Positions 8,635 through 54,833 of a DNA stretch of 64,000 bases are shown here, in pieces. The notes under the pieces were generated by a model, which had not been told where the DNA came from, did no database searches, and saw only the letters and a list, made by a program, of their open reading frames with translations. The stretch spans positions 22,325-86,324 of the forward strand of contig JABDIV010000025.1 in NCBI GenBank assembly GCA_013003555.1, in the 5' to 3' direction. Position 1 is the stretch's first letter; every line of letters starts with the position of its first letter. The DNA comes from Flavobacteriaceae bacterium (lineage in GTDB: Bacteria > Bacteroidota > Bacteroidia > Flavobacteriales > Flavobacteriaceae). The position numbers and the translations under genes were made by a program.

Positions 8635-9222
8635 TTATTTTACAACGGGTTCGTCGTCATCACCTCCCCCAGAAGTACATCCATTTAACAGGGCTTCAAC
8701 AAACATCGCCCAGCTATTGCCGTCGAACTCTGTACCCGAAGCCCAGGCGGTCTCACCTCCTGTTGGTCCGGTGACTTCAGCGTGTGCCGCAAAACAGAAA
8801 TCCTCTAGCAGATATTCAATCGGGAATTCATAAACCACTTCATTCACGCCTTCTGAATGTTCAGAAGAATGCTCAAAATGGCCGATTTTTGGATTACCAG
8901 ATCCGGTTGTTGGAATCTGCTCACATTCGCCAAGGCTTAAATGGGTGGCTCCAATGGTCCAGTCGGGGCCGGCCGAATAGGTAATTTTCAATAGGCCATC
9001 GATGGTTTCGGCAGTAACCAAGCCTGCAATATGATTTTGTCCGGCAATCAATTCAACCTCGAGACAATTCTCGCCTTCACGTGTTAAGGCATTATCTACC
9101 TTAGCTTCATAAACTTTAAATAAATTCTCACTGGTTAATTGGTCGGGCTCAGTTTGCTCGGTTGTGCAACCCATTACCACTATTGCCAAAGATGAGAGGA
9201 TAAAAATGGAAAATTTCTTCAT
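8635..9222 (-). CDS. Secreted lipoprotein with a conserved beta-rich module (family 1, copy A)
   Basis: 195 residues from the ATG at 9222, chosen because it gives a compact signal peptide (MKKFSIFIL) ending in a lipobox VVMGC; the track's longer start adds 12 residues without purpose. The mature part has IAGLVTAETIDGLLKITY, then ATHLSLG, then NPKIGHFEH and FCFAAHAEV, a pattern also seen in the lipoproteins at 9392-9928 and 34516-35811. The protein ends in an acidic glycine-rich tail. I do not recognise a characterised function; surface exposure is plausible. The leader contains a 13-nt segment complementary to the tandem sRNA-like elements at 54.5-54.8 kb. Confidence 0.72.
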   Translation of the reverse strand: MKKFSIFILSSLAIVVMGCTTEQTEPDQLTSENLFKVYEAKVDNALTREGENCLEVELIAGQNHIAGLVTAETIDGLLKITYSAGPDWTIGATHLSLGECEQIPTTGSGNPKIGHFEHSSEHSEGVNEVVYEFPIEYLLEDFCFAAHAEVTGPTGGETAWASGTEFDGNSWAMFVEALLNGCTSGGGDDDEPVVK

Positions 9223-9234
9223 AACTAATATATT

Positions 9235-9247
9235 TAAGTAGGTTAAG
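9235..9247 (-). promoter_or_regulatory. Candidate sRNA-pairing site in the leader of the 9222 lipoprotein gene
   Basis: The mRNA leader carries CTTAACCTACTTA 12 nt before the start codon. This is the exact reverse complement of TAAGTAGGTTAAG, present in both sRNA-like elements (from 54531 and 54768). A near-consensus -7 box (TATGTTTA, 9259-9252) would start the mRNA just before this site. The complementarity is seen; regulation is inferred. Confidence 0.5.
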
Positions 9248-9342
9248 ACTTTAAACATACAACTATATCCGTGAAAAACACTTTTTATTCGACAAACGAA
9301 CCTAAAATGTAAGCGTTTTCTGAATGCGTTTCGATGAAGTAC

Positions 9343-9370
9343 AAAAAAAGCCAGCTAAAAAGCCGGCTTA
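9343..9370 (-). terminator. Terminator of the 9392 lipoprotein gene
   Basis: On the minus strand AAGCCGGC and GCTGGCTT pair with one internal A-C mismatch and are followed by at least six T. It lies 21 bp after the stop codon. Confidence 0.65.
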
Positions 9371-9391
9371 GATTAGTAAACTGTTTATTTA

Positions 9392-9928
9392 TTATTGCTT
9401 CTGAAGGCATTCTTTTGCAAATTCTGGAGCATAACTCATGTCCGAATCTGGTAATTGGATTCCTTCAACAAAAATGGTTTCCTTGATCTTGCCGTTCTTG
9501 ATTATCAATTTAGGCATGAGACAATAAATACCGTTAATATCATCAATTGCAAAATTGAAATCCGCGAGATAAATATCATCATTAAAAGTCTCGGTCTGTA
9601 CATATTTACCCGAGGCAAAAATGTCTGGCTGTTGGGTATCGATTTGAGAAACAGGACCGAAGAACATCTTCGCATCACTAATCTTCCAATACTTTGTCTT
9701 GTACCTAATGGTCAACCAGCCCGTTTTGTGATTAACGAAACTTTCAATAGTACCTCTATAAACGCCTTTCTCGTTTACAAGGTATGCTACAGAGCAAGAT
9801 GCATCTGCCTTAACACTTCTGGTGTTAAGTTCATCCTGACTGTTAAAATCATCATTGTTAATGCTGTCAACGCTGCACGAAGTTACGAATAAGGCAAGCG
9901 CAAAAATGTAAAGTAGTTTTTTCATCAT
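9392..9928 (-). CDS. Secreted lipoprotein, divergent member of the same module family (copy B)
   Basis: 178 residues from the first ATG of an ATG-ATG pair at 9928/9925. The signal peptide MKKLLYIFALALFVTSC has a clear lipobox (VTSC). The mature part keeps the core seen in the neighbouring lipoprotein: GTIESFVNHKTGWLTIRYKT followed by a W-x-I-S-D-A-K-M-F-F-G segment, where copy A has W-T-I-G-A-T-H-L-S-L-G. The second half is less conserved. It is probably an old tandem paralog. Function unknown. A perfect -7 box lies at 9960-9953, so the leader would be only ~20 nt. Confidence 0.7.
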   Translation of the reverse strand: MMKKLLYIFALALFVTSCSVDSINNDDFNSQDELNTRSVKADASCSVAYLVNEKGVYRGTIESFVNHKTGWLTIRYKTKYWKISDAKMFFGPVSQIDTQQPDIFASGKYVQTETFNDDIYLADFNFAIDDINGIYCLMPKLIIKNGKIKETIFVEGIQLPDSDMSYAPEFAKECLQKQ

Positions 9929-9943
9929 ATAGTAAATTTGGGG
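9929..9943 (-). promoter_or_regulatory. Candidate sRNA-pairing site abutting the start codon of the 9392-9928 gene
   Basis: The leader segment CCCCAAATTTACTAT (directly followed by ATG) can pair with ATGGTAGATTTGGGG of the sRNA-like elements over 15 contiguous base pairs. Thirteen are Watson-Crick and two are G-U. Pairing would cover the ribosome landing site. Confidence 0.5.
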
Positions 9944-9952
9944 TTTACAGGT

Positions 9953-9960
9953 CAAAAGTA
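9953..9960 (-). promoter_or_regulatory. -7 box of the 9392-9928 lipoprotein gene
   Basis: TACTTTTG on the minus strand is a perfect TAnnTTTG. Transcription would start near 9949, giving a very short leader. No clear -33 TTTG was found. Confidence 0.55.
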
Positions 9961-54407: not shown

Positions 54408-54521
54408 TCTTAATTTTCATTTTTTGTCAGTTTATCTATAAAATTTGCCGTTTTAACTAAAAAATGTGCATTTCATCTAATATTTATACCCAGTCAGATA
54501 AAAACCGCATACTTTAGTAGA

Positions 54522-54594
54522 ACCATAACATAAGTAGGTTAAGTTCATGGTAGATTTGGGGCAAAAAAAGGTGAACTCTTGTTCACCTTTTTTT
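54522..54594 (+). ncRNA. Small RNA-like element, copy 1, with built-in terminator
   Basis: Core ACCATAAC..GTTCATGGT can fold as ACCAT/ATGGT (5 bp) plus AAC/GTT with a one-base bulge, exposing the loop ATAAGTAGGTTAA. The single strand AGATTTGGGGC follows, then the terminator hairpin GGTGAAC-TCTT-GTTCACC with a T tract. A one-mismatch -7 box (TACTTTAG, 54510-54517) lies upstream. Copy 2 is identical over 45 of 46 core positions. No same-strand gene follows before the next terminator, so this looks like a free-standing sRNA, not a riboswitch. Confidence 0.72.
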
Positions 54595-54746
54595 ATTTGC
54601 TATTGCGAAATAACGATTTTACTCTCCTTTTTAAAAACCCATCTCAGTAATTTATCCAATTGATCTTCAAATGCACGTATTTAAACGCTTAGACTAATTT
54701 ATGAGTCGTTTGTCTAATAAATTTAAATGTTTAAAAGAAGCTACGT

Positions 54747-54754
54747 TATATTTG
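54747..54754 (+). promoter_or_regulatory. -7 box of sRNA-like copy 2
   Basis: TATATTTG (perfect TAnnTTTG) ends 4 bp before the conserved core begins. The RNA would start almost exactly at its 5' stem. Confidence 0.65.
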
Positions 54755-54758
54755 TTTC

Positions 54759-54833
54759 ACCATAACATAAGTAGGTTAAGTTTATGGTAGATTTGGGGCA
54801 AAAAGGTGGACGCAAGTTCACCTTTTTATTTTT
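54759..54833 (+). ncRNA. Small RNA-like element, copy 2, with built-in terminator
   Basis: Same core as copy 1 with a single C-to-T change at the bulge (GTTTATGGT). The terminator stem is kept as GGTGGAC/GTTCACC (A-U replaced by a G-U pair) while the loop changed from TCTT to GCAA. Flanking DNA is not conserved between copies, so the similarity is limited to the transcribed unit. Candidate mRNA targets are the leaders at 9235-9247 and 9929-9943. Confidence 0.75.

Follow-up and report, generated by a model that had tools for sequence, protein, structure and literature searches.

Two short tandem RNA genes in the window (the whole 64,000-nt stretch of Flavobacteriaceae DNA analyzed here) most likely specify a trans-acting antisense sRNA that represses the translation of lipoprotein and microprotein mRNAs within a LytTR regulon—a reading to which we assign a probability of roughly 0.8. 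Each of the two sRNA copies, transcribed from a separate promoter, would consist of a 5' hairpin, a single-stranded G-rich tail and an intrinsic terminator, with loop and tail pairing, separately or jointly, with very short leaders, at the start codon or immediately ahead of it. The putative targets comprise three lipoprotein genes of one family, two of them in the window and the third at another locus, together with a microprotein gene, for which the predicted pairing is strongest. Since the target leaders are about 20-40 nt long and pairing reaches up to or across the AUG, occlusion of the start region, and thereby a block of translation initiation, would be the simplest reading. The expression of the sRNA, the repressive direction of its action, the identity of the box-binding protein and the physiological role are what we infer from these features.

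The sRNA gene and its family

The original prediction spoke of a tandem sRNA-like core, and this core turned out to belong to a real gene family, with 275 copies at 133 loci, each accompanied by a −7 box and a terminator. In the window, the 46-nt core occurs twice on the plus strand, at 54522-54567 and 54759-54804, 237 nt apart and with one base different. Copy 1 of the sRNA spans 54520-54596 (+) and is conserved in relatives; copy 2 spans 54757-54832 (+). In the predicted fold of each (z −4.3 for copy 1, −4.4 for copy 2), the unpaired GATTTGGGGC tail separates a 5' hairpin from the terminator. The hairpin loop of copy 1 reads ATAAGTAGGTTAAG, and the terminators lie at 54563-54594 and 54800-54827 (both +). 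Two seeds matter for what follows: seed 1 in the loop, TAAGTAGGTTAAG (54531-54543 in copy 1 and 54768-54780 in copy 2, +), and seed 2 in the tail, ATGGTAGATTTGGGG (54547-54561 and 54784-54798, +). Upstream of the copies are −7-like boxes of the form TAnnTTnG, TACTTTAG at 54510-54517 and TATATTTG at 54747-54754 (both +), whose distance from the core is fixed across the 275 copies. Farther upstream, a direct-repeat promoter box with LytTR-type spacing, CGTTTTAACTA..GCATTTCATCTAATA, precedes copy 1 (54449-54482, +; 10.3 bits), and its counterpart CGCTTAGACTA..CGTTTGTCTAATA precedes copy 2 (54686-54719, +; 4.2 bits). This anatomy identifies the tandem element as two copies of a discrete, predicted sRNA gene of ~75 nt, both equipped with a promoter and an intrinsic terminator of their own.

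Across the 275 copies, the core ACCATARCATAAGTAGGTTAAGTTYATGGTA(A)GATTTGGGG is almost invariant, and tandem copies are spaced by about 207 nt. A perfect hairpin of at least 6 bp was found in 272 of 273 unique terminators, which together hold 85 different inner stems; the hairpins were counted sequence by sequence because the terminator arms slip in a MAFFT alignment, and a column-based covariation analysis was dropped for the same reason. By blastn, the core was present in 29 of 60 relatives, commonly as arrays, and the matches were confined to one family except for a single weak partial match. In an exact pattern scan, the matches listed for named genomes all belonged to Flavobacteriaceae or to unclassified Bacteroidota/Flavobacteriia bins. 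The locus is syntenic, sitting between purF-like and superoxide dismutase (SOD) genes: the former was found at 117 of 132 loci, and the latter within 2.5 kb at 105 of 132. Collections of phage, plasmid and viral sequences gave no match to the sRNA, and we rejected an origin from such elements. Taken at the level of sequence, the sRNA is very probably a regulator across the family Flavobacteriaceae. A second tandem array, on contig C21 of the same assembly, which also carries an SOD gene, was discarded as a paralog: its sRNA region is identical to that of another genome in our set (G002), so the contig is probably a contaminant of the assembly. Separately, an sRNA-like tail (AATAGGTTGAGTTAGGTAGATTTGGGAGCCAGCAC plus terminator) was seen within a 3' UTR, downstream of a gene with an hsp20-like C-terminus (contig C34, 79000-80700, minus strand near 79696).

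No Rfam family matched the sRNA at the gathering threshold, and relaxed matches (MicX, STnc RNAs) were set aside as terminator look-alikes. The nearest known kind is that of the FopS / GibS sRNAs of Bacteroides (Rfam RF04319)—multicopy paralogous sRNAs of Bacteroidota with a terminator, of which FopS has a single-stranded 5' stretch and a seed that binds mRNAs of outer-membrane proteins close to their start codon and inhibits their translation, as shown for susC (PMC11697453). The present sRNA is likewise multicopy, terminator-bearing and predicted to pair near start codons; however, it falls short of the gathering score of 56 with 22.4 bits, has a predicted extra 5' hairpin that presents one seed in its loop, occurs in tandem arrays, appears to target lipoprotein and microprotein mRNAs, and belongs to Flavobacteriaceae rather than Bacteroidaceae. 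FopS targets SusC start regions, and no SusC was recognized among our top start-proximal matches (40% of the genome). The tail, within 54538-54597 of the window, weakly resembles the seed of Bacteroides FopS (UUCAUGGU..AGAUUU); the two may be remote homologs or may have converged on complements of the start codon. Another conserved flavobacterial trans sRNA, Rfp18 of Flavobacterium psychrophilum, has at least three stem-loops, pairs through the third and targets metalloproteases (PMC9723704); the present sRNA, with two predicted hairpins and other putative targets, appears to differ from it in architecture. One of the other Rfp RNAs in that study, which reported 85 new RNAs of F. psychrophilum, may nevertheless be the same molecule. 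The sRNA was not described in the literature searched (open-access text only).

Lipoprotein leaders and the two seeds

The two lipoprotein genes of the window lie on the minus strand. The first, P0001 (8635-9222, −), encodes 195 amino acids with no Pfam or NCBIfam family above the cut-off. A longer ORF begins at 9258, and the start at 9222 is supported by the lipoprotein signal and by an ortholog (G002) without an upstream start. An exact 13-nt complement of the sRNA loop had been claimed for this leader, and it is indeed there: TAAGTAGGTTAAG at 9235-9247 on the plus strand, i.e., CTTAACCTACTTA on the mRNA strand, at −25 to −13 from the ATG. Upstream follow a −7-like box, TATGTTTA (9252-9259, −), and the promoter box TCGTTTGTCGAATAAAAAGTGTTTTTCACGGATA (9266-9299, −), whose score of 10.9 bits is reached by 0.65% of background upstream regions. 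The second gene, P0002 (9392-9928, −; 178 amino acids), has a −7-like box TACTTTTG at 9953-9960 (−), and its leader carries CCCCAAATTTACTAT (9929-9943, −), ending at the ATG at 9928. As predicted, this stretch pairs over 15 bp, with two G-U pairs, with ATGGTAGATTTGGGG in both sRNA copies, and copy 2, holding a T where copy 1 has a C, extends the pairing to the A of the ATG.

Whether such matches exceed chance was also part of the original prediction, and this argument held only partly. The expected number of matches to the 13-mer in the window is 0, as argued, and genome-wide it occurs only in the sRNA copies and the P0001 leader; yet the reversed control pattern has three genome matches, so the 13-mer count alone is indecisive. 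In a scan of 1.26 Mb (40% of the genome, 1115 ORFs), total complementarity to the sRNA did not rise above 20 shuffles, and with no bulk excess, genome-wide k-mer enrichment was abandoned as proof of targeting. Sites scoring at least 30 near a start codon, by contrast, numbered three versus a shuffle mean of 0.3; besides the P0001 and P0002 leaders, they comprise one site overlapping a −7 box. A purK-like gene, the top start-proximal match, was rejected as a target, its match being largely the −7 box TATTTTTG. Complementarity is thus not common in unrelated leaders across these 1115 ORFs. When 17 leaders of three lipoprotein groups, hand-trimmed beforehand to roughly the transcribed stretch, were scored together, the summed pairing score was 427 versus 271 ± 19 for shuffled sRNAs, and none of 1000 shuffled sRNAs reached this value.

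Conservation in other genera decides the question, as both the sRNA and the leader sites are kept there. Some P0001 orthologs carry complements of the loop seed: CTTAACCTACTTA in G002, as in the window's own genome, TAACCTACTTA in G019 and G014, and TTAACCTAaTTA in G010. Other P0001 orthologs carry a complement of the tail seed instead (CCCCAAATTT in G007, GTCCCAAATCT in G026), and one homolog, one of two in G014 (L196), has no good sRNA site. Orthologs of P0002 retain CCCCAAATTTA. A third paralogous lipoprotein, distant and weakly matched by P0001, is encoded elsewhere in the genome (contig C9, 135121-136182); its leader holds CCCCAATTCTATCA, and its three orthologs keep a tail site. Judged by these leaders, orthologous lipoprotein mRNAs switch between the loop seed and the tail seed of one sRNA. 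The claim that one sRNA would address a lipoprotein family through two seeds thereby gains support from the ortholog seeds and the third paralog. Chance complementarity of the sRNA to two AT-rich leaders draws on the reversed control and the lack of bulk enrichment, but we consider it barely credible, because the window's complementarity recurs in orthologs of other genera and in the third paralog, and because of the shuffling result (0/1000). Conserved complementarity to the leaders of unlinked mRNAs is one mark of a trans-acting base-pairing sRNA, which the present element would accordingly appear to be. Elsewhere, in G036 (contig C2, 542300-544000), a secreted-protein gene (MTKYYFKLSIVC..) with a promoter box has the leader CCCAAATCTACCAT and is likely a further target.

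A microprotein mRNA as the most conserved partner

The strongest partner of the sRNA lies outside the window: an unannotated gene for a protein of 26-42 amino acids, whose leaders first surfaced as antisense sequences among extra blastn matches to the sRNA core. Of 121 family genomes, 55, from 54 genera, carry the microprotein, which has the conserved end ..LLKSxxYLTKKVFML and matched nothing in Pfam, NCBIfam or PHROG. Differences by codon position numbered 596/223/1062 among pairs pre-selected at 60% or more protein identity—an excess at third positions indicating that the gene is coding. One to four complements of the sRNA occur in its leader, the extra ones often upstream and inside the first codons. 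A site scoring at least 30 was present in 26 of 30 orthologs, the longest extending over 32 bp (TTTGCCCTAAATCTACCATGAACTTAGCTTAT, in G002), and two of the four orthologs without one owe this to a start annotated too far upstream. The leader of shorter, more distant microproteins is essentially TCCCAAA..AACTTAACCTACTT-ATG. The leaders of the window lipoproteins pair over 13-15 bp only. Net cofold energies with the sRNA are about −12.5 kcal/mol for P0001, −17 to −19.5 for P0002 and −32 to −34 for the microprotein, the copy in the window's own genome lying at about −34. On sequence conservation and predicted pairing, the microprotein, not the lipoproteins, is the most conserved partner of the sRNA.

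An antisense RNA over the translation start of a small-peptide mRNA is the arrangement of a type I toxin-antitoxin system. IstR-1/TisB exemplifies an unlinked antisense RNA of this kind acting on the leader of a small-peptide mRNA, and the present pair resembles it in this respect. Under such an interpretation, the microprotein would be potentially toxic, the sRNA its unlinked RNA antitoxin and the lipoproteins secondary. The microprotein is small, cationic and amphipathic, with a hydrophobic/cationic C-terminus (..LLKNVLYVAKKVFLLM) and a coding signature; the antisense complementarity is very long and in some leaders includes the start codon; and the sRNA was present in all 43 additional genomes with the microprotein. 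We nevertheless regard this interpretation as unlikely: the sRNA is chromosomal, multicopy, kept family-wide and unmatched in phage, plasmid and viral collections, its loci and those of the microprotein are unlinked, and conserved lipoprotein targets exist as well, setting it apart from IstR-1/TisB.

The multiplicity of sites also raises the possibility that the microprotein mRNA, together with other antisense transcripts, titrates the sRNA as a sponge, with the lipoproteins as the regulated output. Up to four tandem sites per leader would suit such a role, as would four short terminator-bearing loci that begin with a complement of the sRNA tail (L353 in G003, L397 in G020, L396 in G034 and L399 in G036), which we consider candidate anti-sRNA sponges from their sequence. 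The main microprotein site, however, falls on a start codon whose reading frame shows selection as a protein-coding gene, which is the position a target would have, and we take titration as the chief function of this mRNA to be possible, though rather improbable.

Variation within the sRNA itself bears on the nature of the shared sequence. In some genera, the sRNA reads GGTAAGATTT in place of GGTAGATTT; antisense matches outside the sRNA read CTTACC in genomes of the GGTAAGATTT subtype and CTACC in those of the GGTAGATTT subtype. The candidate sponges are matched accordingly, with CTTACC in G003, G020 and G034 and CTACC in G036. The same holds for a repeated, structured element of ~130 nt (TGCGC..GGCGCA ends) that is preceded by an sRNA complement: CTTACC in the four elements of G028 (L337, L347, L354, L395), CTACC in the two of G009 (L384, L406) and the one of G033 (L405). 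One genome, G029, has both sRNA subtypes, and its microprotein leader reads CTTACC. The subtype insertion is thus mirrored in candidate sponges, the repeat element and one microprotein leader, albeit in few independent events, a pattern consistent with pairing between RNAs rather than with a DNA motif. A DNA-binding site of some protein could account for identical words at several promoter-proximal loci without any RNA pairing; but the mRNA strand of the leaders is always complementary to the sRNA, the position of the site tracks the ATG rather than the promoter, terminators vary with their pairing retained while the core stays fixed, and the partners mirror the insertion. We consider a DNA site very improbable, and antisense pairing remains the preferred reading.

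A shared promoter box and a LytTR regulator

We scanned 1.26 Mb with a 34-bp matrix built from the microprotein promoters, in which two half sites resembling TTTCATCGA lie about 21 bp apart. The best upstream match, at 27 bits, belonged to a response regulator with receiver and LytTR domains (contig C80, 221893-222585, minus strand), and the second best, at about 20 bits, to the third lipoprotein; subsequent matches reached only about 10-13 bits. The leaders of both top genes are complementary to the sRNA. In the regulator, which keeps 93-99% identity across the 16 closest genomes, the leader holds CTTAACC, and in several orthologs the leader match consists of CTTAACC only. The box was seen at the LytTR regulator, lipoproteins, microprotein and sRNA with varying strength, P0002 and several P0001 orthologs matching it weakly. 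Regulator and sRNA were both present in 27 of 37 family genomes and both absent in eight, with two discordant cases (Fisher p 2e-6, genomes treated without phylogeny). Its domain, its autoregulatory position and the repeat spacing lead us to infer that the LytTR regulator binds the direct-repeat box. With the box common to sRNA, targets and regulator, this protein would probably drive sRNA and targets alike, as the two arms of an incoherent feed-forward loop. Searches of the open-access literature returned nothing relevant on a LytTR binding site in Flavobacterium or on flavobacterial antisense systems.

Tandem sibling sRNAs such as Qrr, OmrA/B and LhrC also combine near-identical copies, several envelope targets and two-component control, a pattern that the present sRNA resembles. 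They occur in other phyla, the classical cases being Hfq-linked, and the predicted pairing here is far longer (32 bp with the microprotein leader). More tentatively, and somewhat short of an even bet, the components may form a near-invariant Flavobacteriaceae regulon: a loop-and-tail sequence of ~32 nt in the sRNA would be antisense to a multi-site microprotein leader, the microprotein mRNA and further short transcripts would act as target and sponge at once, one LytTR regulator would govern the whole, and lipoproteins would have been recruited by gaining either seed.

The classical sRNA chaperones are missing from Bacteroidota (PMC11697453). In the literature searched, we came across no flavobacterial sRNA that has a comparable conserved target set. 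Few studies have dealt with post-transcriptional control in Flavobacteriaceae, and here an sRNA family, its most conserved target, its probable regulator and candidate sponges can be named from sequence alone. Moreover, lipoprotein orthologs that appear to swap the seeds of one sRNA would represent a clear case of regulatory turnover.
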